From Pontimicrobium sp. SW4 (lineage in GTDB: Bacteria > Bacteroidota > Bacteroidia > Flavobacteriales > Flavobacteriaceae), in the NCBI RefSeq assembly GCF_039954625.1, contig NZ_CP157199.1, forward strand, positions 992,001-1,056,000: 64,000 nucleotides of DNA, given 5' to 3'. Below, in pieces: positions 2,854 to 64,000 of the stretch. The notes under the pieces are model-generated. The model was not told the origin of the DNA, did not search any database, and saw only the letters and a program-made list of their open reading frames with translations. The position numbers and the translations under genes were made by a program. The stretch's first letter is position 1; each line of letters opens with the position of its first letter.

Positions 2854-2883
2854 TAACTTTAGGGAAAATAAACATCAATTAAA

Positions 2884-3297
2884 ATGAAAAAAACTTTATT
2901 ACTTCTCGCAATTTTTTTAGGAATATTATCAGCAAATGCACAAACAGAAACTGAAAAAATAAACAAACCTTTAATGGATTATATTGAAGGAACAGCCAAT
3001 GGAGAACCAGATAGATTGAAACGTGCTTTTCATCCAGATTTTAATTTGTATTTTGTAAAAAATGACTCTGTTAATATATGGTCTGGTAAAGGATACATCT
3101 CTAATGTAAAACAAGGAAAGAAAAGCAATCGTATTGGAAAAATAGTATCTGTAGATTACGAAAATGATGCAGCTATTGCAAAAATTGAAATAGATATGCC
3201 AGATAGAAAACGTCTTTATACAGATTATCTAATGTTATTAAATGTAAAAGGAGAATGGAAGATTATTCATAAATCTTTTACATTTGTAGAATACTAA
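2884..3297 (+). CDS. Secreted NTF2-like (putative lumazine-binding family) protein
   Basis: 137 residues. The signal peptide ends near A-N-A-Q (about residue 20). The mature part is one NTF2-like domain with R-L-K-R-A-F-H, R-I-G-K-I-V-S-V and G-E-W-K-I-I-H-K. It is a paralogue of the protein at 105-689, sharing the I-x-x-P-x-R-K sequence before the final strands. It lies 30 bp after the DUF5916 gene and before a strong terminator, so it is the last gene of this small transcription unit. No enzymatic residues can be named; binding of a small hydrophobic ligand would be typical of the fold. Confidence 0.75.
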   Translation: MKKTLLLLAIFLGILSANAQTETEKINKPLMDYIEGTANGEPDRLKRAFHPDFNLYFVKNDSVNIWSGKGYISNVKQGKKSNRIGKIVSVDYENDAAIAKIEIDMPDRKRLYTDYLMLLNVKGEWKIIHKSFTFVEY

Positions 3298-3303
3298 AAC
3301 AAT

Positions 3304-3334
3304 AAAAAACGCCTCAATTAAGAGGCGTTTTTAT
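3304..3334. terminator. Bidirectional rho-independent terminator
   Basis: Perfect stem AAAACGCCTC/GAGGCGTTTT around a short AATTAA-type loop, with A and T runs on both sides. It lies between the convergent NTF2-like gene (+) and fadE (-) and can serve both. Confidence 0.85.
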
Positions 3335-3350
3335 CCAACCAACCAAAAGT

Positions 3351-5153
3351 CTAAAAACAATATTTGTTTTCAGCTTTAACTTTTTCAGCAATTTCGTTAC
3401 GTAAATCCACTATATCAGGATAGTTTGTATACTTAGTAAATCGCTTCAATCCCATAAGCAACATTCTTTGTTCGTCACCTTCAGCAAATGAGATAATGCT
3501 TTCTTTTCCTTTTTCTTCTATTATATCCACAGCGTGGTATAAGTATAATTTAGACATTGCTATTTGTACAGATTGAGCTTCTTTTCCAAAACGTTTTGCG
3601 TTCTTTTCTGTTCTTAAAATTGCAGATTCGGCCATGTAAATTTCAATTAAGATATCTGCTGCTGCAATCAATAATTGTTGATGTGCTTCTAGGTCTGGAC
3701 CAAATTTTTGCACAGCACCACCAGCAACCATTAAGAAGGTTTTTTTAAGTTTCTTAATCATCTCTTTTTCTTCTGAAAATAGTTCAGAATAATCTGGTGT
3801 ATCAAAAGATGGTATTCCCATTAATTCTTCTTGAACAGATTGTGCAGGACTTAGTAAGTCAACATGACCTTTCATAGCTTTTTTAACCAACATACCAACA
3901 CAAAGCATTCTGTTAATTTCATTCGTTCCCTCGTAAATACGTGCTATACGCGCATCTCTCCAAGCAGCTTCCATTGGCGTTTCCTCAGAGAATCCCATAC
4001 CTCCGTAAATTTGTATACCTTCGTCTGCACAGTTTTGTACATCTTCAGAAACAGCAACTTTTAAGATAGAACATTCAATAGCATATTCTTCAACACCTTT
4101 TAACTCTGCTTCTTGATGTGAGTTGCCAGCAGCTTCACGTAATGCTATTCTATCTTCAATATTTTTTGCAGCTCTATATGTTGCAGATTCACCTGCATAA
4201 GCACTTGTAGCCATTTCTGCTATTTTTACTTTAATAGCACCAAACTCAGATATTGGTGTTTTGAATTGCTTACGTTCATTGGCATATTGTACACCTAATG
4301 ATGTGATGCGTCTTTGAGAATCTAAACAAGCAGCAGCTAATTTTATACGACCAACATTTAGAGCATTCATAGCTATTTTAAAGCCATTTCCTCTTTCAGA
4401 TAGCATGTTTTCAACAGGAACTATAGTATCGTTAAAAAATACTTGTCTAGTTGATGAAGCACGAATACCTAATTTATGTTCTTCTTCACCTAGCGTAATA
4501 CCGTTGGGATTATCTTTATCATACTCTACAATGAAACCTGTAATATTTTTGTCATCCTTAATTCTTGCAAACACAATCATTAAACGACAGAATCCTGCGT
4601 TTGAAATCCACATTTTCTGTCCGTTAATCTTATAAGATTTTCCATCTTCAGAAAGCGTTGCAGTTGTTTTACCAGAATTGGCATCACTACCTGCTCCAGG
4701 TTCTGTTAAGCAATAAGCCCCAAACCATTCACCAGAAGCTAATTTTGGCACATATTTTTGTTTTTGCTCTTCGGTACCATATAATGTAATTGGTAAAGTT
4801 CCTATTCCAGTGTGTGCACCAAATGCTGTACTAAATGAACCAGTACCAGATGATATATAATCACAGGTTAAGCATGTAGATACAAATCCCATTCCTAAGC
4901 CACCATAGGCTTCAGGGACTGCTACACTAAGAAATCCAAGTTCTCCAGCTTTTTGCATACATTCTTCAGTCAATGCATAATCTTTAGCTTCAAATCGTGC
5001 TTTATGAGGAATAATTTCACGGTCGTTAAATTCTATAACCGCTTCTTTCATCATGTTTTGTTCTTCTGAAAAGTCTTCAGGAGTAAAAACGTCTTCACAA
5101 TTAGTTTCTTTTACTAGAAACTGACCTCCTCTTAATAATTCTTTTTCTTCCAT
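3351..5153 (-). CDS. fadE: Acyl-CoA dehydrogenase, long-chain (VLCAD/FadE-like)
   Basis: 600 residues. Oxidises acyl-CoA to trans-2-enoyl-CoA with FAD, the first step of beta-oxidation. The flavin-side signature L-T-E-P-G-A-G-S-D is at residues 149-157. The second signature, Q-I-Y-G-G-M-G-F, is followed by Y-E-G-T-N-E-I, placing the predicted catalytic Glu at 408. About 170 residues follow the usual 380-residue core, as in VLCAD/ACAD9 and Bacillus FadE (about 594 aa). Last gene of the marR-fadN-fadA-fadE operon, 42 bp after an IVP-like gene. Chain-length preference is inferred from the architecture only. Confidence 0.93.
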   Translation of the reverse strand: MEEKELLRGGQFLVKETNCEDVFTPEDFSEEQNMMKEAVIEFNDREIIPHKARFEAKDYALTEECMQKAGELGFLSVAVPEAYGGLGMGFVSTCLTCDYISSGTGSFSTAFGAHTGIGTLPITLYGTEEQKQKYVPKLASGEWFGAYCLTEPGAGSDANSGKTTATLSEDGKSYKINGQKMWISNAGFCRLMIVFARIKDDKNITGFIVEYDKDNPNGITLGEEEHKLGIRASSTRQVFFNDTIVPVENMLSERGNGFKIAMNALNVGRIKLAAACLDSQRRITSLGVQYANERKQFKTPISEFGAIKVKIAEMATSAYAGESATYRAAKNIEDRIALREAAGNSHQEAELKGVEEYAIECSILKVAVSEDVQNCADEGIQIYGGMGFSEETPMEAAWRDARIARIYEGTNEINRMLCVGMLVKKAMKGHVDLLSPAQSVQEELMGIPSFDTPDYSELFSEEKEMIKKLKKTFLMVAGGAVQKFGPDLEAHQQLLIAAADILIEIYMAESAILRTEKNAKRFGKEAQSVQIAMSKLYLYHAVDIIEEKGKESIISFAEGDEQRMLLMGLKRFTKYTNYPDIVDLRNEIAEKVKAENKYCF

Positions 5154-5176
5154 TCTATTTTAAGATTAATAGATTC

Positions 5177-5572
5177 AAGAATCAAGATTCAAGACTTATA
5201 GTTTAAGTCCAGATTGAAAACCTGAAATCATTTTTTGTATTTGTTTTATTTTTTCTTCTAATTCTTTGAATTTTTCTTCTGATAGATAACCTTCATTAAA
5301 TGCAATTATTAATTGGGTTTCCCATTCAAAAGCAGAACCTAAACTATCTTCAAGATATTTATTGAAATGTTTGTCTGTGCTTTTACTAGAACCTTCAGCT
5401 ATATTTGAAGGAATTGAAACTGCACATCGATTCATTTGAGTTGATAATCCAAATTTTTCAAAATCTGGAAAAGTTCGTGTTAGTTTATAAGATTCTGAAA
5501 CTAACTCCATACTAACAATCCATATTTTTAGTTTTTTGAAATTATGCATTTAAGTCTTGTCTCTTGGTTCTT
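5177..5572. mobile_element. Putative IVP element A: four-helix-bundle gene between 22-bp imperfect inverted repeats
   Basis: The segments at 5177-5198 and 5551-5572 are inverted repeats matching at 19 of 22 positions by hand alignment; both contain CAAGACTT/AAGTCTTG. The left arm covers the stop codon of the enclosed gene and the right arm begins 2 bp upstream of its start codon, so the repeats bracket the gene exactly. In the operon mRNA the arms could pair and loop out the whole gene. Mobility is inference; no transposase and no target-site duplication were identified. Confidence 0.45.
5196..5549 (-). CDS. Four-helix-bundle protein, 23S rRNA intervening-sequence protein (IVP/S23) family
   Basis: 117 residues, the family's usual length. 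Diagnostic motifs are L-K-I-W near residue 7, F-G-L-S-x-Q-M-x-R near 32-40, S-I-P-S-N-I-A-E-G near 45-53 and E-x-E-T-Q-L near 75-80. Relatives are encoded in insertions within bacterial 23S rRNA genes, and a related fold is the Avd accessory protein of diversity-generating retroelements; they form basic oligomers thought to bind nucleic acid. Here it sits between fadA (36 bp upstream) and fadE (42 bp downstream) inside inverted repeats. It is clearly related to the copy at 6804 but diverged, so a recent tandem duplication is unlikely. Function in this position is unknown. Confidence 0.85.
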   Translation of the reverse strand: MHNFKKLKIWIVSMELVSESYKLTRTFPDFEKFGLSTQMNRCAVSIPSNIAEGSSKSTDKHFNKYLEDSLGSAFEWETQLIIAFNEGYLSEEKFKELEEKIKQIQKMISGFQSGLKL

Positions 5573-5585
5573 ATTGTCCTTGTTC

Positions 5586-6776
5586 TTAATTAAGAAATTC
5601 AAATATTCCGCAAGCACCTTGCCCAGTTCCCACACACATGGTTACAGCACCATATTTACCTTTCATATTGCGCTTTCTCATTTCATCAAATAACTGAACA
5701 GATAATTTTGCTCCAGTACAACCAAGAGGATGACCGAGAGCAATCGCTCCACCATTTACATTAATAATATCAGGATTAAGATTAAGTTCTCTAATTACGG
5801 CTAGAGACTGAGAAGCAAAGGCTTCATTTAACTCTATTAATTCTAAATCATCTTGTTGTAATCCAGCTTGTTTAAGTGCTTTTGGGATGGCCTTTACAGG
5901 TCCAATTCCCATGATACGAGGTTCAACACCAGCAGCAGCATAGTTTACTAAGCGAGCAATTGGTTCAAGGTTAAATTCCTTTACCATGTCTTCACTCATT
6001 ATCATTACAAAAGCAGCGCCATCGCTCATTTGAGAAGAGTTTCCAGCTGTTACACTACCTCCTTGAGCAAATACAGGACGAAGTTTAGCCAAGGCTTCAA
6101 GATTTGTTCCTTTACGAGGCCCTTCATCTTTAGTCACCGTGTATTTTTTTGTTGCTTTCTTTCCGTTATCATCTATGTATATTTGCTCTACATCAATAGG
6201 AACAATTTGGTCTTGAAAACGGTTTTCCGCCTGCGCTTTTAAGGCTTTCATGTGTGAATTAAAAGCAAACTCATCTTGGTCTTCACGAGACACTTTAAAT
6301 TGATTAGCAACTGCTTCAGCAGTATTTCCCATTCCCCAATAATAATCTTCGTGACCTGCTTTTACTGTATCATAATTTAATTCTGGTTTAAACCCTGTCA
6401 TTGGTACAGCACTCATACTTTCTGCACCTCCAGCAATAATACAATCTGCCATTCCTGCTTGAATTTTTGCAGTTGCAATACCAATGGTTTCTATGCCTGA
6501 AGCACAAAATCGATTAACGGTAACTCCAGGAACATCAACACTATTTAATCCGATTAATGAAATAAATCGTGCCATATTTAATCCTTGGGAACCTTCAGGC
6601 ATTGCGTTACCAACAATAACGTCATCAATCCTGGTTTTATCGAAATCTGGTAATTCCTTCATCATGTGCTGAATGGTTTCAGCTGCTAATTCATCGGTTC
6701 TTTTAAAACGGAACACACCTTTTGGTGCTTTGCCAACGGCAGTTCTATATGCTTTTACTATATATGCTTGTTTCAT
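5586..6776 (-). CDS. fadA: Acetyl-CoA acyltransferase (3-ketoacyl-CoA thiolase)
   Basis: 396 residues. Cleaves 3-ketoacyl-CoA with CoA to acetyl-CoA and a shortened acyl-CoA, the last step of beta-oxidation. Predicted residues: acyl-accepting Cys91 in N-R-F-C-A-S-G, His349 in G-H-P-L-G-C-T-G, and Cys381 in M-C-V-G-T-G-Q-G, the standard thiolase triad. The full length agrees with FadA-type thiolases. It lies between two IVP-like genes in the fad operon; the fadN-fadA-fadE order matches Bacillus fadNAE once these insertions are ignored. Confidence 0.95.
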
Positions 6777-6783
6777 TTAATTA

Positions 6784-7200
6784 TAGTATTGAGTAATGAG
6801 GTTTTAGTATTGAGGTTTTAATTTCTGTTGAAATGAATAATTCATTTTCTGAATCTCAATACATACATCAATTACTGGTTGTATTTTTTCTTTTGCTATT
6901 AAATTTAATTCTATTAATAAGATGAGTTGAGTTTGAAGTTCATAAGCTGAACCATTTGCAATGCTTAAAAAATGCTTAAATTCTTTTTGAGAATTTCTTC
7001 CAGCTCCTTCAGCAATATTTGAAGGAATAGAAGTAGCACTTCGTTTTATTTGAGATGTTAAGCCAAATTTTTCATCAGAAGGTAAATCTGTAGCAAGAAT
7101 ATATACAGCTTTAGTCAATTCGATTGACTTTCTCCATATTTTTAAATCTTCTACTTTGTGCATAACTTTCTAAATACTCAATTCTAAAATCTCAATACTA
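6784..7200. mobile_element. Putative IVP element B: four-helix-bundle gene between bipartite inverted repeats
   Basis: Left arm blocks 6784-6793 (TAGTATTGAG) and 6801-6820 are answered on the right by 7191-7200 (CTCAATACTA, exact complement) and 7171-7190 (16 of 20 complementary). As in element A, the left arm covers the stop codon and the right arm lies just upstream of the start codon. The arm sequences differ completely from those of element A, although layout and cargo family are the same. Mobility is inference. Confidence 0.45.
6804..7163 (-). CDS. Four-helix-bundle protein, 23S rRNA intervening-sequence protein (IVP/S23) family
   Basis: 119 residues with the same family pattern as the gene at 5196: L-K-I-W near residue 8, F-G-L-T-S-Q-I-K-R near 33-41, S-I-P-S-N-I-A-E-G near 46-54, A-x-G-S-A-Y-E-L-Q-T-Q-L near 70-81. 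Predicted as four amphipathic helices with a basic surface; no catalytic motif. It is inserted between fadN (45 bp) and fadA (27 bp) on the same strand and must be read from the fad transcript unless it has its own promoter, which I did not find. Role unknown; nucleic-acid binding is inferred from the family. Confidence 0.85.
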   Translation of the reverse strand: MHKVEDLKIWRKSIELTKAVYILATDLPSDEKFGLTSQIKRSATSIPSNIAEGAGRNSQKEFKHFLSIANGSAYELQTQLILLIELNLIAKEKIQPVIDVCIEIQKMNYSFQQKLKPQY

Positions 7201-7208
7201 GCAACTAA

Positions 7209-9617
7209 TTAGTTGCGAAGCGGTTTACCAGTTTTTAACATGTGCTGAATACGTTCCAATGTTTTTCGCTCTGTACAAAGTGATAGAAAGGCTTCACGTT
7301 CTATATCTAATAAGTATTGCTCGCTAACTAATGTAGGTTCAGATAAATCTCCTCCAGCCATTACATAAGCGAGTTTATTGGCAATTTTTTGGTCATGTTC
7401 ACTAATGTAATTTGCAGCTTCCATAGAATCCGTTCCTACTAAAAACATACCAAGAGCTTGTTTTCCAAGGACTTTAATATCTTTACGTTTTACAGGTTGT
7501 GTATATCCAGCGTCAGCTAATAATCTTGCATGAGCTTTAGCTGTAGCAATTTGTCTGTCCTTATTAACTACCACTACATCTTTTCCTTTTTGTAAAACAC
7601 CCATATCAAAGGCTTCATAGGCTGATGTAGCTACTTTTGCCATACCAATTGTTAAAAAATATTCTTGTAGGATGTTTAATTCTACATCTCCTTTTCTAAA
7701 GGTGTCTTGAGCTCGTAATGCCATTTCTTTTGAACCACCACCACCAGGAATGACTCCTACTCCAAACTCTACAAGACCAATATAAGTTTCGGCAGCCGCG
7801 ACAACTTTATCTGCATGCATTGATAGTTCGCATCCACCACCTAATGCCATTCCATGTGGTGCAGCAATAGTTGGAATAGAGGAGTAGCGCATACGCATCA
7901 TGGTATCTTGAAAATATTTGATAGCCATATTTAACTCATCGTATTCTTGCTCTACAGCCATCATGAAAATCATACCAATATTGGCTCCAACTGAGAAGTT
8001 TGCACCTTGATTTCCAATGACCAAGCCATCGAAGTCTTTTTCTGCTAAATCAACCGCTTTGTTCAATCCTGCAAGAACATCACCTCCAATGGTATTCATT
8101 TTAGATTGGAATTCGCAGTTTAAGATTCCATCGCCTAAATCTTCAATAACAACTCCCGAGTTTTTAAATACTTCATTCGATTTTCTGATATTATCTAGAA
8201 TAATGAATGCATCTTGTCCAGGAATTTTTTCTTGAGATTTTTTCGGAATAGCATAAGCATAAGTTGCACCATCTTTTACTGTATAGAATGAAGAGTTTCC
8301 TGATGCTAACATACCATCTACCCAGGCTGCAGGTTTTTTACCTTCAGCTTTCATAATTTCGATCCCTTTTTCAACTCCAATAGCATCCCAAATCTGGAAA
8401 GGTCCGTGTTCCCAACCAAATCCAGCTTTCATGGCATCATCAATTTTGTATAACTCGTCAGTGATTTCAGGAATTCTGTTCGATACATATTCAAACATAG
8501 CAGCAAAGTTTTTTCTATAGAATTCACCAGCTTTATCTTTTCCTGAAACTAAAATTGGAAAACGGTCAATAACTTTATCGACTGTTTTAGTAAGTTCTAA
8601 AGTAGCGAAAGAAGCTCTTTTTTTAGAACGATATTCTAATGTGTCTAAATCTAAAGACAAGATTTCACTTTTACCACTATCTCCTTTTACTTTTTTGTAG
8701 AACCCTTGACCAGTTTTACTCCCTAACCATTTATTTTCCATAATTGTGTTGATAAATTCAGGCAGTTTGAACAGCTCATGAGCTTCATCATCTGGACAGT
8801 TGTCGTAAATACCGTTAGCAACATGAACTAAAGTATCTAATCCAACAACATCAACAGTTCTGAAGGTTGCCGATTTTGGACGACCAATAACAGGACCTGT
8901 TAATTTATCAACTTCCTCAACTGTTAATCCTAACTCCTTTACTTGATGGAATAGTGATTGTATTCCGAAGATTCCAATTCTATTTCCAATAAAAGCAGGA
9001 GTGTCTTTGGCAACTACTGATGTTTTACCTAGGAATTTTTCACCATATTCATTTAAGAACTCTAATACTTCATTAGAGGTTTTTGGGCCTGGTATGATTT
9101 CGAATAATTTTAAATAGCGAGCAGGATTGAAAAAGTGTGTTCCACAAAAGTGTTTTTGGAAATCTTCACTTCGTCCTTCACTCATAAACTTAATAGGAAT
9201 ACCAGAAGTGTTTGATGTAATTAGCGTTCCTGGAGCTCTGTGTTTGTCCAAATTTTCAAATACTAATTTCTTAATATCTAAACGCTCTACAACTACTTCG
9301 ATAATCCAATCGACATCTTTTACTTTCGCTACATCGTCTTCTAAATTTCCAGTAGTAATACGACTCGCAAATTTTTGATGATAAATAGGAGATGGTTTAG
9401 ATTTTAAAGAAGAGTTTAATGAATCGTTCACTAAACGATTTCTAACTATTTTATTTTCAAGAGTTAATCCTTTTGATTTTTCTGCTTCCGTAAGTTCTCT
9501 AGGAACAATATCGAGCAGTAAAACATCAACACCAATATTGGCAAAGTGGCAAGCAATACCACTTCCCATAATACCAGAACCAATGACGGCTACTTTTTTT
9601 ATTCTACGTTTACTCAT
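7209..9617 (-). CDS. fadN: Bifunctional 3-hydroxyacyl-CoA dehydrogenase / enoyl-CoA hydratase (FadN type)
   Basis: 802 residues. The NAD-binding Rossmann loop G-S-G-I-M-G-S-G is at residues 13-20, followed by the 3-hydroxyacyl-CoA dehydrogenase helical domains to about 430. The enoyl-CoA hydratase/isomerase module is in the C-terminal part, with G-M-A-L-G-G-G-C-E-L-S-M and G-V-I-P-G-G-G-G near 585-635. This dehydrogenase-first order is the reverse of E. coli FadB/FadJ and matches Bacillus FadN (about 789 aa). It carries out steps two and three of beta-oxidation. Its start overlaps the marR stop by 4 bp (ATGA), so the two are translationally coupled. Confidence 0.93.
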   Translation of the reverse strand: MSKRRIKKVAVIGSGIMGSGIACHFANIGVDVLLLDIVPRELTEAEKSKGLTLENKIVRNRLVNDSLNSSLKSKPSPIYHQKFASRITTGNLEDDVAKVKDVDWIIEVVVERLDIKKLVFENLDKHRAPGTLITSNTSGIPIKFMSEGRSEDFQKHFCGTHFFNPARYLKLFEIIPGPKTSNEVLEFLNEYGEKFLGKTSVVAKDTPAFIGNRIGIFGIQSLFHQVKELGLTVEEVDKLTGPVIGRPKSATFRTVDVVGLDTLVHVANGIYDNCPDDEAHELFKLPEFINTIMENKWLGSKTGQGFYKKVKGDSGKSEILSLDLDTLEYRSKKRASFATLELTKTVDKVIDRFPILVSGKDKAGEFYRKNFAAMFEYVSNRIPEITDELYKIDDAMKAGFGWEHGPFQIWDAIGVEKGIEIMKAEGKKPAAWVDGMLASGNSSFYTVKDGATYAYAIPKKSQEKIPGQDAFIILDNIRKSNEVFKNSGVVIEDLGDGILNCEFQSKMNTIGGDVLAGLNKAVDLAEKDFDGLVIGNQGANFSVGANIGMIFMMAVEQEYDELNMAIKYFQDTMMRMRYSSIPTIAAPHGMALGGGCELSMHADKVVAAAETYIGLVEFGVGVIPGGGGSKEMALRAQDTFRKGDVELNILQEYFLTIGMAKVATSAYEAFDMGVLQKGKDVVVVNKDRQIATAKAHARLLADAGYTQPVKRKDIKVLGKQALGMFLVGTDSMEAANYISEHDQKIANKLAYVMAGGDLSEPTLVSEQYLLDIEREAFLSLCTERKTLERIQHMLKTGKPLRN

Positions 9618-10069
9618 TTTAGGATATCTTCTTTTTGATTATATATTCTTTTATTTGAAATCATTTCATTTATGATTTCTGCGACTTCATAAAAGTGTTT
9701 CATTTTCTCTTCGGATACTTGGTCTCTAATAGTATTATTAAATGTAAGCACACGTTCACGAGAATATTCTCTTTTCTCACGACCAAACTCGGTAAGGTGA
9801 ATTAGAACACCACGTCCATCTTGTGGGTTGGGTCTTCGCTCTATAACACCACGTCCTTCCATATTTTTTAAAATTCTCGACAAACTTGTTGCTTCCATTC
9901 CCATTTTTGGTCCTAAAGCAGTAGATGGTGTACCACTGATAGGGTCTATACTTAGAAGTGTGAACGCTATTGCCATGGTTGCATCAAATTTTGATGCCTC
10001 TTCGTTGTACATTTTTTGAACAGCTAACCAAGTGGTTCTTAATACGTAATCTATTGTTTTTTCTTTCAT
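9614..10069 (-). CDS. MarR-family transcriptional regulator of the fad operon
   Basis: 151 residues from the ATG at 10069. An in-frame ATG at 10141 would add a 24-residue hydrophobic leader and would run through both palindromes, so I reject it. The winged helix-turn-helix lies about residues 45-100: G-M-E-A-T-S-L-S-R-I-L-K-N-M-E is the recognition region, and D-G-R-G-V-L-I-H-L-T the wing with the conserved D-x-R. The gene heads the fad operon and overlaps fadN by 4 bp. Twin palindromes over its own promoter suggest autorepression relieved by an acyl-CoA or fatty acid; the ligand is inference. Confidence 0.88.
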   Translation of the reverse strand: MKEKTIDYVLRTTWLAVQKMYNEEASKFDATMAIAFTLLSIDPISGTPSTALGPKMGMEATSLSRILKNMEGRGVIERRPNPQDGRGVLIHLTEFGREKREYSRERVLTFNNTIRDQVSEEKMKHFYEVAEIINEMISNKRIYNQKEDILK

Positions 10070-10086
10070 ATTAAATAGTGAAAGAC

Positions 10087-10150
10087 CAAATATAATAAAT
10101 AATACTATGCATGCATAGTAAATTATTAAAAAATTATGCATGCATAGTAA
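10087..10150 (-). promoter_or_regulatory. marR-fad promoter with two MarR-type palindromic operators
   Basis: An 18-bp perfect palindrome, TACTATGCATGCATAGTA, lies at 10103-10120. A second copy at 10133-10148 differs from its central 16 bp at one base; the centres are 29 bp apart. On the minus strand a flavobacterial -7 box TATATTTG lies at 10087-10094, so the first palindrome covers the -33 region. Occlusion of RNA polymerase by bound MarR fits the geometry. Identity of the binding protein is inferred from adjacency. Confidence 0.65.
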
Positions 10151-10213
10151 AATATATTACTAAAGTTTATCAATTGGAAATAAAAAGTTCCGATAAAAAG
10201 GAGCTTTTATTAA

Positions 10214-11986
10214 TTAAGAGCGGTATATTTTTTCGATAAGGTGTCCGTATTTTTCTTTAATCACCTTTCGTTTCATTTTCATAGTAGGAGTAAGATGACC
10301 TTCATCTATAGACCAAATTTCTGGAGTTAATTCAAACTTTTTAATCTGTTCCCATTTGCCAAATTTGGTGTTTGCATAGTCAATTTCCTCTTGTATTCTA
10401 TCTCGCAACTTTTGATTAGCTGCAACATCTTCTTTAGAATTAAAAGTAATATCATGACGTTTTGCCCATTCTTCAATAAATTCAAAATTTGGTTGAATTA
10501 ACGCAGCTGGCATTTTTTCGCCTTCTCCGATAACCATAATCTGTTCTATAAAACGTGATTGTTTAAATTGATTTTCTATAAGTGCAGGAGCCACATATTT
10601 TCCACCTGAGGTTTTAAACATTTCTTTTTTACGGTCTGTAATTTTTAGGAAACCATCTTCACAAATTTCACCAATATCTCCAGTGTGGAAATACTCTCCA
10701 GACATGACTTCGTTGGTTTTTTCTTGATCTTTGTAATAGCCTTGCATTACGTTTGGTCCTTTTACTAAAATTTCACCATCTTCAGCAATTTTCACTTCTA
10801 CGTTGTGAATCACTCTTCCTACTGTACCAACTCTAAAGCCTCCATTTCGTTGATCATTTACTGAAACAACAGGAGAAGTTTCAGTTAAGCCATACCCTTC
10901 CATAATTGGCATTCCAGCTGCAGCAAAAATTCTTGTTAGTCTTGGTTGTAAAGCTGCACTACCAGAGACCATTAAGTCTAAATTACCTCCTAAGCCTTCT
11001 TTCCATTTGCTAAATATTAGTTTTCTAGCTAATGCTAACTTCTTTTCGTAAAACCAACCATTTGCACCATAAGGCTCATACCTCAAACCTACTTTTACAG
11101 CCCAAAAGAATAGTGCTTTTTTTATTCCAGATAGATCCGTTCCTTTAGCTATAATTTTATCATAGACTTTTTCATAAAGTCTAGGAACAGCTGTCATCAC
11201 ATTTGGTTTTATTTCTTTTAAATTGTCACTCATTTGTTCTATAGATTCAGCAAAATATACTTCAACGCCACAGTATTGGTATAAGTAGAGAATCATACGT
11301 TCAAATACATGACATACAGGGAGGAAACTTAGGGATTTTGATTGCCCATAATCAAAAGGGACTCTCTTTTCACTATCTAAAACGTTTGATACTAAATTAT
11401 TATGTGATAGCATGACACCCTTTGGTTTTCCTGTGGTTCCTGAGGTATAAATGAGTGTTGCTAAATCATCTGGAGTTACATTGTTTTTTCTGTTTTCTAC
11501 TTCATCTTGGTTGCTTACATCCTTTCCAATCTTTAGAACTTCTTTCCAGTTTTTTTCACCTTTAATATCATCAAAGGTAAATACCTCTTTTAACTTAGTA
11601 TTTCCTTTTATGGCATTTAATTTATCAATAATTTCTTTATCTGAAACAAAACAATAAATAGCTTCGGAATGATTTAATATATATTCATAATCTTCTTTGC
11701 CAATGGTAGGATAAATTGGTACGTTTTGAGCTCCAACTTGTAGAATACCTATGTCTACAACATTCCATTCAGTTCTATTGGTTGAAGAAATTACTGCAAT
11801 TTTATCATTTGGTTTTACACCTAATTTTAGTAAGCCTCTACTTATAGTATTTGCTAAATCAATATATTCTTGTGTAGAAGTCGATTTCCATTTACCGTCA
11901 TATTTTGTAGTAAATGCTCTTTCTAAATTATAAGTTTCTAGTTGATAATATGGAAAATCAAAAATCCTTGATATTTGTATTGACAT
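10214..11986 (-). CDS. fadD: Long-chain fatty acid--CoA ligase (AMP-binding)
   Basis: 590 residues. Activates fatty acids to acyl-CoA through an acyl-adenylate. The AMP/ATP-binding motif L-I-Y-T-S-G-T-T-G-K-P-K-G is near residues 180-195. The adenylation core G-Y-G-L-T-E-T-S-P follows near 360, then T-G-D-I-G, and D-R-K-K-E-M-F-K-T-S-G-G-K near 450-465. The size and R-K-E-M-F-K-T variant resemble FAA/FadD15-type long-chain ligases. It lies immediately upstream of marR-fadNAE on the same strand, which fits fatty-acid catabolism. A weak hairpin (about 10184-10208) follows its stop, so read-through into marR is possible. Confidence 0.92.
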   Translation of the reverse strand: MSIQISRIFDFPYYQLETYNLERAFTTKYDGKWKSTSTQEYIDLANTISRGLLKLGVKPNDKIAVISSTNRTEWNVVDIGILQVGAQNVPIYPTIGKEDYEYILNHSEAIYCFVSDKEIIDKLNAIKGNTKLKEVFTFDDIKGEKNWKEVLKIGKDVSNQDEVENRKNNVTPDDLATLIYTSGTTGKPKGVMLSHNNLVSNVLDSEKRVPFDYGQSKSLSFLPVCHVFERMILYLYQYCGVEVYFAESIEQMSDNLKEIKPNVMTAVPRLYEKVYDKIIAKGTDLSGIKKALFFWAVKVGLRYEPYGANGWFYEKKLALARKLIFSKWKEGLGGNLDLMVSGSAALQPRLTRIFAAAGMPIMEGYGLTETSPVVSVNDQRNGGFRVGTVGRVIHNVEVKIAEDGEILVKGPNVMQGYYKDQEKTNEVMSGEYFHTGDIGEICEDGFLKITDRKKEMFKTSGGKYVAPALIENQFKQSRFIEQIMVIGEGEKMPAALIQPNFEFIEEWAKRHDITFNSKEDVAANQKLRDRIQEEIDYANTKFGKWEQIKKFELTPEIWSIDEGHLTPTMKMKRKVIKEKYGHLIEKIYRS

Positions 11987-12050
11987 GCTTTTAATAATTT
12001 AGAAGTATGGAAATGTATAAAAATTAAACAAGATTTTAAAGTAAAGACAT

Positions 12051-12090
12051 AAAAAAAAGGAATCGATAGGTTTTCGATTCCTTTTTTTTG
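12051..12090 (-). terminator. Rho-independent terminator
   Basis: Stem AAGGAATCGA/TCGATTCCTT (12057-12066 and 12074-12083) with a 7-nt loop, flanked by A8 and T8 runs. It follows the pentapeptide-repeat gene on the minus strand and is symmetric enough to work both ways. Confidence 0.85.
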
Positions 12091-12106
12091 ATTTTTTTGA
12101 TTGATG

Positions 12107-12844
12107 TTAATTTTTACTGTCTAAGAGGTACTTACTAAAACCTTTACCATTAATTTTAGTATACTTAGAATCAATATTATCAGCAACCGTCATGTTCTTA
12201 ATATCAAATTCGCCACTTACTTTGGTATATTTTATGTCAAGGTCATCTTGAAATTTAGCATTATTAAAGGAAACACCATCTCTAAATTGTGAATATTTAA
12301 ATATCGCGTCTTCATCAAAAGTAGTATTTGCAAAGCTTACATTTTGGTCAAATTTAGCATACTTAAACGTTGTTATATCACTGAATTTTGAGCCACTAAA
12401 ATCTGCATTACGTTCAAAATCGGAATACTTAAATAAGGCTTCACCCTTAAAAGTACAATTAGTAAATTTTACATCATTTTCAAAGTTTGCTACAAAGGTG
12501 TATTCAGAGTCTTCATCATGATAATAAGCATACACATTATCTTCAAATGTACAATTGGTAAAAGATACTGAGCTTTCAATTTGTTCTTTCACAGAATTAC
12601 TTCCACCATTTTTCCACCATTTTTTTCTTTTTGGTAAGTCAGGAAGTTTCTCATTCATAAAAGTCATGTCTAATGTTCCAGTAATGGAAACATTATCATA
12701 AGAGACTGTTTTGCCCATTTTAATAGCTCTCATAATATCACTTGCTTTTACTGTTTGCTGAGCAAAGGCATTAGTTGAGAAAATAAATGCAAATAAAATT
12801 AGAGATACAACTGTTCGTTTTTTGATTGAGTGATTGATTGTCAT
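12107..12844 (-). CDS. Secreted pentapeptide-repeat protein
   Basis: 245 residues. The signal peptide is cleaved near A-F-A-Q (about residue 29). From about residue 85 there is a ladder of A/F-x-F-x-x/N-x-x-F units (V-S-F-T-N-C-T-F, A-D-F-S-G-S-K-F, V-S-F-A-N-T-T-F, V-S-F-N-N-A-K-F), each separated by a D/E-x-x-x-F-K-Y-S/A-x-F spacer. This gives a two-unit, about 20-residue period expected to fold as a right-handed quadrilateral beta helix. Likely periplasmic or surface exposed; no enzymatic motif. Single-gene unit ending at a strong terminator. Function unknown. Confidence 0.75.
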   Translation of the reverse strand: MTINHSIKKRTVVSLILFAFIFSTNAFAQQTVKASDIMRAIKMGKTVSYDNVSITGTLDMTFMNEKLPDLPKRKKWWKNGGSNSVKEQIESSVSFTNCTFEDNVYAYYHDEDSEYTFVANFENDVKFTNCTFKGEALFKYSDFERNADFSGSKFSDITTFKYAKFDQNVSFANTTFDEDAIFKYSQFRDGVSFNNAKFQDDLDIKYTKVSGEFDIKNMTVADNIDSKYTKINGKGFSKYLLDSKN

Positions 12845-12924
12845 AATATAAAGTTTATAGTATTATAGACTATACTTTTTATTGAATGTTACAGTTTCTA
12901 ATCAAAAAAGTAATACAACTGGAA

Positions 12925-15900
12925 TTATTTGTGGTTTTCAATCCACTTTCTAGCATTCACAAACGCTTCTAACCATGGTGAAACTTCGTCTTTTCTACCT
13001 TCAGGATAGTGAGCCCAATTCCATTGAAATGTTGAACGTTCAATATGTGGCATAGTTACTAAATGACGACCAGTTTTATCACACATCATGGCAGTATTGA
13101 AATCTGAACCATTAGGATTGTGAGGATAGTCTTTATAGCCATATTTAGCAACGATATTGTATTTATCTTCAGTATATGGCAAGCTAAATTTGCCTTCTCC
13201 ATGAGAAATCCAAACACCTAAAGTTGTTCCAGCAAGGGTTGATAACATTACAGAATCATTCTCTTGTATTTTTACAGAAGTAAATGAACTTTCGTGTTTA
13301 TGTGACTCATTATGCGTTAGTTTTCCATGAGTTTCATGTTCAGGATTTACTAAATCTAATTCCATCCAAAGTTGCGCACCATTACAAATGCCAACAGATA
13401 GCGTATCATCTCTATCAAAAAAGTTCTTTAAAGCAGAATTTGCTTTTTCATTATACTTAAAAGCACCAGCCCAACCCTTAGCTGAACCTAAAACATCAGA
13501 ATTACTAAAGCCACCAACGGCTCCAATAAATTGAATATCTTCTAAAGTTTCACGACCAGAAATTAAATCGGTCATGTGCACGTCTTTTACATCAAAACCA
13601 GCTAAATACATAGCATTTGCCATTTCACGTTCAGAGTTGCTTCCTTTTTCACGAAGGATAGCTGCTTTAGGCCTTGTATTTCCTATGACAGGTAATTTTC
13701 CAGTGAAATGTTTAGGGAAGGTATATTGTAAAGGTTGATTTTTGTAATTGTTGAATCTATCTTCAGCTAAATTCTTCGCGGTTTGTTTTTGGTCGAGTAG
13801 GAAAGAGGTTTTATACCAGACATCTCTTAATCTCGATACCGTCATAGTGAATACTTCAGCTTGATTAATAACACTTAGTACATCAGATTCGGTTACTTTT
13901 CCAATATTGAAATACTCAATATTTGCTTCTGATAAAACTGTTTCTACTGAAGCATCTTTTGCTTGAAACACAACTCCTGAATTTTCTGCAAATAAGATTT
14001 TAAAAGAATCTTTTTCATCTAAAACACTTAAATCTAATTCAGCACCTAAATTAGTGTCAGCAAAGCACATTTCAAGTAACGTAGTAATCAAACCACCAGA
14101 AGCTACATCGTGTCCAGCAACAATTTGCTCATCTTTGATTAACTGTTGAATCGTGTTAAAAACTTTTTTTACATAAGAGGCATTGGCAACATTTGGCGCA
14201 TCATTTCCAATTTTATTAAGTATTTGAGCAAACGAGCTTCCACCTAACTTAAAATCGTCCTGAGATAAATTAATATAATAAATAGCCCCTGCGTTTTTTT
14301 GAAAAACAGGCTCCACAACTTTTGTAATATCATTACAATTTGCAGCAGCAGAAATAACCACAGTTCCTGGTGCAATTACTTCTTCATTTGGATATTTTTG
14401 TTTCATCGACAAGGAATCCTTTCCTGTTGGCACATTAATACCCAAATCAATAGCGAATTCTGAAATCGCTTGAACCGCTTCATATAATCTAGCATCTTCA
14501 CCTTCATTCTTACAAGGCCACATCCAGTTTGCAGATAGAGAAACTGACTTTAACCCATCTTTTAAAGGTGCCCAAATAATATTGGTCAAGGCCTCTGTAA
14601 TGGAATTTCTACTTCCAGCTTCTGGATTAATAAGACCAGAGATAGGAGAGTGCCCAATTGAGGTTGCAATTCCTTCTTTTCCTTTGTAATCTAAAGCCAT
14701 TACACCAACATTGTTAAGAGGTAATTGTAATGGTCCAGCACATTGTTGTTTAGCTACTTTTCCACCGACACAACGGTCTACTTTATTGGTTAGCCAGTCT
14801 TTACAAGCTACTGCTTCTAACTGTAAAACTTGATCTAAATACTCGTAGAAATTATCTGAGTTATACGAAACATTTTCATAATTTCTTTTAACAGTTTTGT
14901 CAAACATAACAGTTTTAGGAGAGCTTCCAAACATATCTTCCATAGCTAAATCCATAGGTTTGTTGCCTTTGATTTTAGATTGAAATGTAAAGCGGTCGTC
15001 TCCTGTAACATCACCAACGGTATACATTGGTGAACGCTCACGTTCAGCTATTTTTTGTAATGTATCAATATGTTTTTCAGAAATAACTAACCCCATTCGT
15101 TCTTGAGACTCGTTACCAATTATTTCTTTATCAGACAATGTAGGGTCTCCTACTGGTAATTTATCTAGATCTATTTTTCCGCCTGTATCTTCAACTAGTT
15201 CCGACAAGCAATTTAAATGTCCACCAGCCCCATGGTCATGAATTGAAACAATGAAGTTTTCTTCACTTTCTACCATGCCACGAATAGCGTTTGCTGCACG
15301 TTTTTGCATTTCTGGGTTAGAACGTTGTACAGCATTAAGCTCGATTCCTGATTCAAATTCTCCAGTATCTGCAGATGACACAGCAGCACCACCCATACCA
15401 ATACGGTAATTTTCACCACCAAGAATCACAATTTTATCACCTTCTTTAGGTGTGTCTTTTAAAGCTTGATCAACTTTTCCGTAACCAATACCTCCAGCTT
15501 GCATAATAACTTTATCGAAACCAAGTTTACGTGGTTGAGACCCTTCGACTGCGCTCAGGGTGACATCGCTACTCTCGTCATGTTCAAAAGTTAATACTGA
15601 ACCACAAATAAGTGGTTGGCCGAATTTGTTTCCAAAATCTGACGCACCATTCGATGCTTTTATTAAAATATCAATTGGTGTTTGGTATAACCATTTACGG
15701 GCTTCAAATTTTTGCTCCCAAGGTCTGTTTTCTTCCAAGCGAGAATACGATGTCATATAAACTGCTGTTCCTGCTAATGGCAACGAACCTTTTCCTCCAG
15801 CAAGTCTATCTCTAATTTCTCCGCCTGAACCTGTTGCGGCACCATTAAAAGGCTCTACAGTTGTTGGGAAGTTATGCGTTTCAGCTTTTAAAGAAATTAC

Positions 15901-61902: not shown

Positions 61903-62274
61903 ATGAATAAACAGGTAATTATTATTTGTTGCGCGCTTGTTTTGTCAATGTCTTGTAAACAAGAACAGACTTTACCAGACCCTTATCAAGCTGGTTGGGA
62001 AGGCGAAAAAGTATGCGAAGTCCTTGAAGATAATAATGAGTTACGTGTTTTAAAATGCACGTTTCCACCAGGCGTAGGTCATGACAAGCATTACCATGAG
62101 CCACATTTTGGGTATGCATTGGTAGGAGGGACGTTTAAAATTGAAGAAGCTACTGGAACTAGAGAGGTTAGCTTTCCAACTGGGTTTTCTTGGAGTAAGG
62201 AGGTTGTTTCACAGCACCAAGTGCAGAACGTAGGCGATAGTACTGCAGTGTTTTTAATTATTGAGTATAAATAA
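61903..62274 (+). CDS. Cupin-domain lipoprotein
   Basis: 123 residues. Lipobox S-M-S-C-K (Cys18). A single cupin barrel (about 45-123) has motif 1 as G-H-D-K-H-Y-H-E-P-H-F-G (His60, His63, His65 and His68 available for metal), G-T-F-K-I-E near 76, and motif 2 around S-Q-H-Q-V-Q-N-V-G-D near 104. A metal-bound periplasmic cupin is likely; reaction unknown. It directly follows the NTF2-like gene and ends 11 bp before the attC-like element, in the orientation expected of an integron cassette gene. Confidence 0.82.
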   Translation: MNKQVIIICCALVLSMSCKQEQTLPDPYQAGWEGEKVCEVLEDNNELRVLKCTFPPGVGHDKHYHEPHFGYALVGGTFKIEEATGTREVSFPTGFSWSKEVVSQHQVQNVGDSTAVFLIIEYK

Positions 62275-62285
62275 TTGTGGTTTTT

Positions 62286-62418
62286 GTTTAACGGTATTGT
62301 GTAAGAATAGTTACGGTGTTAAAGACCTAATTTAGTAAAAAGAAACGAACCAGAGGAAAATCCGTAGGATTTTCCGAGTAGGCTAGAACTAAGCAACTAT
62401 TTTTACACGGTGTTGGGC
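62286..62418 (+). other. attC-like folded recombination site (integron cassette type)
   Basis: GTTTAAC (62286-62292) fits the RYYYAAC R'' box and GTTGGGC (62412-62418) fits the GTTRRRY R' box; the two are complementary with G-U pairs. Inside them 62299-62314 pairs with 62393-62408 (14 of 16). The variable centre contains a perfect hairpin, GGAAAATCC-GTA-GGATTTTCC (62355-62375). The 133-bp size is within the attC range. No integrase gene is in the window. Confidence 0.55.
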
Positions 62419-62425
62419 ACAGTAT

Positions 62426-64000
62426 TTATGCTTTTTTTATGTTTATAGCACAAGATCCTGTTTTATTTTCTCCCATTTCAAATGAGACTAATTGTCCGTT
62501 TTTTAAGTCTTTCCATTCTTTCCAATCAGCTATGTCAATAAAATCATAGCGATAAGCAAAGATTCTGTCATTTCCCGATTCTATAAAAACAAAGTTATTT
62601 TGCTCTTTGGTTTTTATTACGTTTCCTAGTTTTTTCTGCTGATTTGCCTCATAGTCAATGAGTGTATTCAAAGAATCATCTTTAAACTTTTCCTCAAATT
62701 TTAAAATGATTTTTTTCTTCAAATCTACGGTAAGGTCAATATATGAGTTGGTTTTTTTTACTAAATCCTTTATATATTCTCTGTTTTCATCAATTGAAAC
62801 AACAGGAATCATTCTCACAAAATGAAGTAATCCAATACTGAAATTTTTCGTCATCTTGTAGTCTACAATTGAATCATCAATACATTCTAAAAATAGTTCA
62901 AAGCCTTTCTTAAAATGACTAACTCCAACTATAATATCCGTTTGAATTAATAATTCACTCTTTCCCCTTTCAATGTAGTAAGATATAAGTTCGGTATTTG
63001 CAATTCTTAAATTTTTGGAATCTAATTCCACATTAGTTTTTAAGTTAACTATAACCTTAATGGCATTACTAAAATCTTGAGCCGTATTTAAACAGCGTGC
63101 AATTAAAAAAGCAGTAAATGGATGATTTGGTTTTTGGTCATATACTTTTCTTGCATATTTTAAAGCTCCATCTGTATCTTCAAGCTTAAACATTAAAAAT
63201 TGCGCATAATAATATAAAAGACGTATATTTTCTGGTGCAATTTCAAGACCTAATTGGTAATCTTCATCTGCACTTAACAAATCACCTTGAGTAGCTTTAA
63301 TGAATGCCCCAACTCTATAGACTTCAAAGAAATTTGGGTCGATATTTTTTGCTTCTTTTACTTTTAAAAGTGCATTTTCGTAGTCACCATTTTTGGAATA
63401 AAATAACGCTTCTTGCAAGAATTTAGCACTAACCATTTGGTTTTGATTATCATATACTAATGCGTTAAGAGCGAATTCATTATATTTTTGAACTTTATTA
63501 ATTTGTCTTATTCCAACATTTAATTCTTTTGATTTTTTGATATTTGCTTTAATATAAGATTCTTCAATTGGATATTTCTTTGAAAGAAAGTCTTTGGCAA
63601 AATCAGAGATATAATAAATAACTTCTTCGTAGTTATTCCCATCCTCAATTTGTCTAGAAATCAATGTGGTTTTAAACAGTTCAATTAAGTATTTTCTAAC
63701 CTCTAATGGCTTATAATCAGATAAATATATGATTTCCGCAATGGTTACCTTTTTTCTTGATGCTCTGATAGTTTTTAGAATAGAGATTGCTCCTTCAGAT
63801 AATTTTTCGTAAACGTTAGTAAGACAAAAATCTAGCAAGTCTTCTTTATTGTTTATTACTTCGTGTGGTGCGATTCCAGTTTCTACAGTACTCACAAACC
63901 ATTTAATGGCTAAAGGATTGAAATAGAGTTTTTCTGAAATATCAACTAAAGTCTTTTGAGGTAGCTTTAATAAAGTTTCACTATTTCTAATTCTTGCAAT
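62426..64000 (-). CDS. STAND-type NTPase C-terminal part: winged helix, TPR array, cold-shock-like domain (partial)
   Basis: The reading frame is open to the right edge (about 524 residues visible); a GTG at 63895 is an internal codon, not the start. The first visible residues include L-Y-F-N-P-L-A-I-K-W-F-V, matching the GxPLAI motif of NB-ARC/STAND ATPases. A winged-helix segment (V-Y-E-K-L-S-E-G-A-I-S-I-L-K) follows, then at least five TPR-like units (for example G-D-Y-E-N-A-L-L-K-V-K-E-A). The last 65 residues resemble an OB-fold cold-shock domain (N-N-F-V-F-I-E near RNP1, L-K-N-G-Q-L-V-S-F-E). The P-loop part lies outside. Possible defence or signalling protein. Confidence 0.7.
   Translation of the reverse strand: MARIRNSETLLKLPQKTLVDISEKLYFNPLAIKWFVSTVETGIAPHEVINNKEDLLDFCLTNVYEKLSEGAISILKTIRASRKKVTIAEIIYLSDYKPLEVRKYLIELFKTTLISRQIEDGNNYEEVIYYISDFAKDFLSKKYPIEESYIKANIKKSKELNVGIRQINKVQKYNEFALNALVYDNQNQMVSAKFLQEALFYSKNGDYENALLKVKEAKNIDPNFFEVYRVGAFIKATQGDLLSADEDYQLGLEIAPENIRLLYYYAQFLMFKLEDTDGALKYARKVYDQKPNHPFTAFLIARCLNTAQDFSNAIKVIVNLKTNVELDSKNLRIANTELISYYIERGKSELLIQTDIIVGVSHFKKGFELFLECIDDSIVDYKMTKNFSIGLLHFVRMIPVVSIDENREYIKDLVKKTNSYIDLTVDLKKKIILKFEEKFKDDSLNTLIDYEANQQKKLGNVIKTKEQNNFVFIESGNDRIFAYRYDFIDIADWKEWKDLKNGQLVSFEMGENKTGSCAINIKKA

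Follow-up and report, generated by a model that had tools for sequence, protein, structure and literature searches.

Which kind of protein is encoded at the far end of the 64,000-nucleotide stretch of the Pontimicrobium sp. SW4 genome analysed here (the window, G000:C1:992001-1056000, where G000 is the host genome), and how might its gene have come to this place? The window ends in a minus-strand frame of 524 codons (62426-64000 in the open reading frame (ORF) listing of the window) that stays open up to the window edge, and a preliminary description had read it as a truncated STAND-type nucleoside triphosphatase (NTPase) with tetratricopeptide repeats (TPRs) and a cold-shock-like tail. The window end matches G000 at 100%, and extension of the contig (locus L002, C1:1054001-1073000) yielded a complete ORF of 881 amino acids with an ATG start (L002:426-3071, which is 62426-65071 in the window numbering used throughout; far end G000:C1:1057071). 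The frame is intact to the ATG, so that the truncation is that of the window edge only and a decayed gene is ruled out. We propose that this STAND (NB-ARC) protein, a bacterial relative of the immune receptors of plants and animals (NLRs), is a one-gene abortive-infection switch, cued by RNA or single-stranded DNA and with a ribonuclease (RNase) output, a reading to which we give a probability of about 0.58.

Four samples of the family were compared. Alignment A1 holds the 881-residue protein and 33 of the 120 listed homologues (34 sequences), and A2 the protein and 23 of 26 loci (24 sequences; L021, L023 and the fragment L027 were left out). A3 comprises 18 divergent members, including 2 of the 12 Bacteroidota loci and omitting L027 and L026, the latter a 203-codon frame. 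A4 is a profile built from the tails of 23 family members, encoded at loci and on plasmids; it omits the tail-less L015 and L019, L020, which has an extra stretch after the tail, and L004 and L005. The parts of the gene that lie in the window are:

62426..64000, minus strand: C-terminal 524 codons (residues 358-881) of the 881-residue gene, ordered likely HEPN, NB-ARC, winged helix, TPR and cold-shock domain (CSD) (ORF listings of the window and L002)
63851..64000, minus strand: C-terminal part (residues 358-407 of 206-407) of the NB-ARC NTPase (Pfam E 1.7e-10)
63908..63919, minus strand: NPLA motif (residues 385-388) inside the NB-ARC match, invariant in 34 of 34 sequences (A1)
63572..63850, minus strand: winged-helix-like segment (about residues 408-500, approximate boundary; helix and strand order in the AlphaFold2 model)
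62684..63445, minus strand: TPR-type helical repeat region (residues 543-796; AlphaFold2 model)
62432..62626, minus strand: CSD (residues 816-880; Pfam CSD, family tail profile A4)
62582..62599, minus strand: RNP1-like strand NNFVFI (residues 825-830), aligned to FGFI/YGFI of distant members
62546..62563, minus strand: RNP2-like strand IFAYRY (residues 837-842), aligned to the second strand of relatives

The centre of the protein is matched by Pfam NB-ARC at residues 206-407 (over the cut-off), which scores higher than Pfam NACHT (E 1.8e-4, below the cut-off), and carries DNLE and NPLA motifs, the latter presumably the GLPL-type motif of NB-ARC proteins. The P-loop, which the preliminary description had expected upstream of the window frame, is encoded together with the HEPN domain beyond the window edge, in the stretch running to 65071, and is intact: G215, G217, G218, G220 and K221 are invariant in 18 of 18 members of A3. 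This NTPase is flanked by an N-terminal effector-type domain on one side and by C-terminal repeats on the other, where Pfam TPR models match inside residues 554-685; the segment between NTPase and repeats is predicted to fit a winged helix. Fold searches with the full-length model returned mainly TPR proteins, and the TPR-bearing STAND protein 6mfv ranks first in Foldseek. The full-length model is of low confidence across the NTPase (block predicted local distance difference test (pLDDT) values of 30-72 over residues 161-400) and for this reason was not read for domain packing. By profile the domain order is NB-ARC, TPR, CSD. All of the elements named in the preliminary description (STAND NTPase, NPLA-type motif, TPRs, RNP-like strands and cold-shock-like tail) are present in the 881-residue protein, and nucleotide-driven assembly, by ATP, would be expected of it.

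HEPN ribonucleases carry an R-x4-6-H motif with a polar residue following the R. The stretch RNRVMH at residues 111-116 fits R-N-x3-H, and its R, N and H are kept in all sequences of the three alignments (34/34 in A1, 24/24 in A2 and 18/18 in A3). The best structural matches of the N-terminal model are AbiF, Csm6, SO_3166 and HepT toxins, which we take to be HEPN RNases. The effector that was expected outside the window is, from motif and model, likely a HEPN RNase placed upstream of the NTPase; it would have RNase activity and would presumably act as the effector.

The opposite end of the protein is less obvious from a single sequence. Pfam CSD matches the 881-residue protein itself at E 0.015, below the cut-off, and is found at E<=0.05 in 22 of the 34 aligned members (A1) and at E<=0.01 in 6 of 10 distant members; the tail of the Macrococcus relative (L021) is over the cut-off (E 9.5e-9). 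When the A4 profile was searched against the PDB, the top matches were the cold-shock proteins UNR (2.8e-15), CspLA (2.1e-13) and CspB (2.9e-12), and nearly all rows under E 1e-5 are cold-shock, Y-box, UNR or CSD proteins by name. This search rules out a chance CSD-like match, and the cold-shock-like tail is by profile a cold-shock domain. The AlphaFold2 model gives it five strands (block pLDDT 75-83 over residues 821-880), and F829 is invariant in 23 of 23 aligned tails. The position of the tail had been called unusual; it is no one-off, since the tail aligns in 16 of the 18 divergent members (read from A3), from several phyla, and is missing from those of Nostoc (L015) and Geomonas (L019). 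A CSD in the gene that follows in these two was considered and dropped, as no RNP-like stretch was seen by eye when the 900 bases behind each were read in all three forward frames. The tail is a candidate for binding RNA or single-stranded DNA, be it as trigger or as target, judging from its sequence.

These data suggest how the protein might work. The TPRs and the CSD would form a C-terminal arm that senses an infection cue, one that probably includes RNA or single-stranded DNA. Assembly of the protein by the ATPase would follow, and RNA would then be cut by the likely HEPN domain at the N-terminus, so that the cell is halted. In STAND proteins, according to passages of PMC12931631, an NTPase switch is joined to an effector at the N-terminus and a sensor at the C-terminus. 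Because the sensor arm here ends in a nucleic-acid-binding-type domain and the effector is likely an RNase, the protein is most simply read as an abortive switch, set off by RNA or single-stranded DNA and acting through the destruction of RNA. The trigger would presumably be phage and the role phage defence, and the gene is most likely a transferable switch that stops the cell on phage attack.

Analysis of the distribution revealed at least 401 homologues at E 1e-3 (7,993 candidates scored). Among the matches listed (120 of 401), identities are 58-99% and most are full-length; more distant relatives, with 25-40% identity, come from Bacillota, Alphaproteobacteria, Gammaproteobacteria, a spirochaete, Nostoc and Geomonas, and some of them are plasmid-borne. 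Closer to the host the gene is rare: it was found in 0 of 5 congeners, 1 of 59 relatives and 1 of 391 other Bacteroidota genomes at E 1e-50 (at most two candidates scored per genome). We also compared its identity with that of PurB in the 12 genomes in which PurB was found. The family protein is more alike than PurB in three (81% vs 68% in L014, 78 vs 70 in L004, 85 vs 82 in L003), equal in one (84, L005) and less alike in eight (e.g. 58% vs 83% in L010 and 43% vs 78% in L013). The patchy presence and the identities out of step with the hosts point to horizontal transfer, as judged from these sequences. A phage-borne gene was rejected, with no relatives in 50,697 phage records (tblastn) and none encoded by the 125 stretches of viral contigs that fitted the search pattern; a tRNA-linked island was likewise dropped, as neither the window nor L002 holds a tRNA. 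Two side observations concern single members. Tenacibaculum finnmarkense is the named source of two distinct ones, P0010 and P0110, which are 82% and 59% identical to the 881-residue protein. In Ruegeria (L026:9980-10591) the frame of the relative stops after about 203 codons, just beyond the start of the P-loop, and this relative may be broken or split.

The surroundings of the relatives were searched for defence genes, and the enrichment in defence islands that the preliminary description had proposed to look for is found in part. Among 10 neighbours, chosen by length, one per locus, out of a table of 18 loci, PADLOC identifies a known defence gene in two; AriAB adjoins the Halobacillus copy and GajB the Brevibacillus copy. 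A Rhizobium plasmid copy is near type I restriction genes. The association is not universal: the R. etli plasmid copy lies among sugar-transport genes, with no defence genes listed there. PADLOC models gave 0 families at E<=1 for the 881-residue protein and, over 34 relatives, six weak and mixed families (best 5e-05) with no Avs model among the matches; a catalogued defence family (Avs/AVAST or other) was rejected, as the 881-residue protein has no PADLOC match.

The borders of the gene in SW4 suggest how it may have been carried there. The features concerned are:

62412..62421, minus strand: 3' cassette end TGTGCCCAAC, directly after the stop, exact inverted repeat of GTTGGGCACA
65091-65100, beyond the window: 5' cassette end GTTGGGCACA, starting 29 bases before the ATG, exact 10-nt inverted repeat of TGTGCCCAAC
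62286..62418, minus strand: attC-like site 3' of the gene, 133 bp, GCCCAAC ... GTTAAAC, a long imperfect hairpin (hairpin fold, genome copies)
61903..62274, plus strand: cupin-type lipoprotein gene next to the insertion, bordering the empty site on the left; present in all five congeners

A single ORF thus lies between matched GTTRRRY/RYYYAAC ends. In 20,000 flank shuffles a terminal repeat of 10 nt was never reached, and none of the 58 ORFs of the window has one as long as 8 nt. The same two ends flank the copies of Maribacter (L003) and of a Bacteroidia metagenome-assembled genome (L014), and other 10-nt GTT...AAC ends flank those of Algoriphagus (L007) and Cellulophaga (L010). Under this relaxed GTT/AAC rule, loosened from GTTRRRY after the L007 and L010 ends had been spotted by eye, 10-nt ends occur in 5 of 15 Bacteroidota family rows (about 14 loci, since L048 is apparently the same genome as L011, with identical coordinates in G434 and G456) and in 3 of 580 other ORFs, all three in L003 and L014. 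At >=9 nt, 8 of the 580 have them, seven of these in L003, L007 and L014; the 580 still include distant copies, none of which is among the rows listed at >=7 nt. Under the strict GTTRRRY rule at >=8 nt, 3 of the 15 Bacteroidota rows qualify, and none of the 12 distant copies or of the 185 controls does. The hairpin of the downstream attC-like site has z values of -1.8 and -2.3 on the two strands against shuffles; the upstream site has the core sequences, with a hairpin no better than shuffles (z 0.2 and -0.3).

Comparison with the congeners located the empty site. In G001 a TlpA-like gene stands about 35 bases from the cupin gene with nothing between them. The TlpA-like gene was not found beside the cupin gene in the stretch fetched from G003, G004 and G005, and the empty site is therefore established for G001 only. 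In G002 the gap between the cupin and TlpA-like genes holds a different ORF of 118 amino acids (L039:1953-2309) behind the same GTTTAACGG edge, so this gap may be an insertion hot spot. We infer that the gene was captured as an integron-like, mobile cassette and that the copy in the SW4 genome is an off-platform one. A promoter-like TTG-N20-TAGATTTG, which we take to be a Bacteroidota-type promoter consensus, was also noticed at 65146-65176 (L002:3146-3176, minus strand), ending 74 bases upstream of the ATG; because it lies outside the cassette, the resident locus may supply the promoter of the gene.

A candidate platform is present elsewhere in the same genome:

G000:C1:3372000-3391000 (L061; recombinase 12541-13722, array 851-12243), minus strand: 393-residue tyrosine recombinase, then same-strand genes

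Four genes of this array have matched 10-nt GTT/AAC ends. One of them is bSEFIR (PADLOC E 4e-100), and the array also encodes a 1241-residue nSTAND3 protein and a match to a TIR-type effector (E 5.6e-9). Aligned with the junction that precedes bSEFIR, the attC-like site beside our gene shows 83% identity over 126 bases; it has nine other copies in the host genome at E<1e-7, three in or next to the array and six elsewhere. The recombinase resembles XerA, an XerC-like protein and IntI4, and has 19 residues (281-299) where IntI4 has 62 (184-245), presumably the position of the additional domain (patch) of IntI. The IntI profile (TIGR02249) stays below the cut-off in 19 of 19 genomes searched, and a classical IntI integron in the host genome was dropped for this reason; all 14 control genomes also give matches below the cut-off, so weak matches alone are uninformative.

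In 7 of the 12 genomes read out of these 19 (G048, G434/G456, G451, G453, G457 and G458 are outside this reading), the best IntI-like recombinase is followed by one or more cassette-like ORFs on the same strand. Their numbers are four in the host (10 nt), four in G001, one in G448, two in G449, 14 in G450, two in G452 and five in G459. G002, G005 and G454 showed none; the same holds for G003 and G455, whose contigs end about 0.2 and 2.3 kb past the recombinase. One array scan tried several start codons per ORF, which makes matches somewhat easier to reach, and it gave none in three stretches of 15-18.5 kb (L072-L074). Similar recombinases with cassette-like ORFs are found in L065 (G001), L068 (G452), L069 (G448), L071 (G449), L014 and the Mangrovimonas locus L067 (G450), whose 14 ORFs are on one strand. 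The family gene lies directly behind the recombinase in Algoriphagus and is the third gene of the array in L014. The recombinase of the G001 platform (L065/L092, G001:C37:11639-12745) has one in-frame stop, and that array may therefore be frozen.

Other explanations were weighed against these data. With the same protein and the same RNase output, the TPR arm might recognise a phage protein, as in Avs, and the CSD might only hold or select RNA for the HEPN domain. Repeats make up more of the arm than any other part, and the two relatives without a CSD retain the HEPN motif, the ATPase and the repeats, as this explanation would have it; a CSD in 16 of 18 divergent members is, however, more than expected of a dispensable helper, and we consider this explanation possible and somewhat unlikely. 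A regulator of host stress or translation would have the CSD sense cellular RNA altered by cold, starvation or antibiotic, and the HEPN domain adjust mRNA or tRNA. Its appeal lies in the high conservation of the whole protein (A1), in the CSDs of housekeeping cold-shock proteins and in the name of LuxR-type glucitol operon activator that one source gives, automatically, to several relatives. Such a regulator should not be so patchy (missing from 5 of 5 congeners and from 390 of 391 other Bacteroidota genomes), should not fit host relatedness so poorly (81% vs 68% for PurB in L014; 58% vs 83% in L010) and should not lie between cassette-type ends, and we judge this explanation very improbable.

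The mode of arrival can be questioned independently of function, since the inverted repeats and the attC-like hairpin might be ordinary intergenic repeats and the gene might have arrived by homologous recombination or another element. The downstream hairpin beats shuffles only moderately and the upstream site does not, the 10-nt repeat is missing in 10 of 15 Bacteroidota rows, six of the nine other copies of the downstream site are away from the array, and no IntI passes the cut-off in any of the 19 genomes. This account is nevertheless improbable in our view: exact 10-nt ends are found in 5 of 15 family rows vs 3 of 580 other ORFs, same-strand cassette-like ORFs lie behind the recombinase in 7 of 12 genomes read, and the empty site of G001 argues against ordinary repeats. 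A wider proposal extends the abortive RNA- or single-stranded-DNA-responsive switch to a widespread, uncatalogued NLR-like class, in which the CSD would bind phage RNA or single-stranded DNA and license the HEPN domain through the NB-ARC switch, and which in Bacteroidota would travel as a one-gene cassette of a patch-less Xer-type platform that also stocks bSEFIR, a TIR-type effector and another STAND protein. We hold this proposal as tentative and, taken whole, rather unlikely.

Three things go beyond the preliminary description: an effector of HEPN type, a family that spans phyla and mostly keeps the CSD tail, and the cassette setting of the gene. If the abortive-switch reading is true, a single chain combines the sensor, the switch and the RNase of a compact bacterial NLR that responds to RNA or single-stranded DNA and has relatives across phyla, and its trigger and output are testable through point mutants of the invariant residues. 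Immunity in Bacteroidota would also be linked to the cassettes of an integron-like platform whose recombinase differs from IntI, and single-gene defence systems might spread through this phylum by that route.

Among known systems, integron cassettes and clusters of attC sites lacking integron-integrases (CALINs) likewise have one ORF between matched GTTRRRY/RYYYAAC ends and an attC-like hairpin. Unlike in integrons, the array recombinase here is Xer/IntI-like, with 19 residues against the 62 of IntI4, and misses the IntI cut-off; literature searches found no paper on a patch-less integron-like recombinase. Since integrons are already listed in Bacteroidota or Bacteroidetes in passages of PMC8618304, PMC9668308 and PMC2426708, arrays as such have precedents in this phylum. 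A passage of PMC8618304 names off-target insertion among the proposed origins of CALINs, and reports of defence genes in integrons from 2024-25 are cited within PMC13092281.

As for the protein, the defence RNases AbiF, Csm6, SO_3166 and HepT toxins have the R-x4-H type motif in common with it. Passages of two papers on conflict systems place cold-shock and other OB domains among the RNA-binding domains of NTP-dependent systems (eLife 2020 and 2021 papers; PMC7159879) and describe HEPN fused to inactive STAND modules (PMC8195603). The order HEPN-NB-ARC-TPR-CSD with an intact P-loop, in contrast, was not met in those passages, and no paper on this domain order was found in literature searches. 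The bNACHT NLR-related proteins also use a STAND switch against phage (passages of PMC12169576), but NB-ARC beats NACHT in our protein, and effector and sensor differ. Avs/AVAST proteins such as Avs5 share the N-terminal effector, central STAND NTPase and C-terminal repeat sensor (passages of PMC12931631), whereas here the effector is likely a HEPN RNase, the NTPase is of the NB-ARC type and the arm is closed by a CSD. CoCoNuT type IV restriction systems, in passages of PMC11090510, bring an NTPase together with CSD-like OB folds and with HEPN nucleases and are predicted to target RNA; they are of the McrBC type, consist of several genes and contain a GTPase and coiled coils, whereas in SW4 all parts are in one STAND protein.
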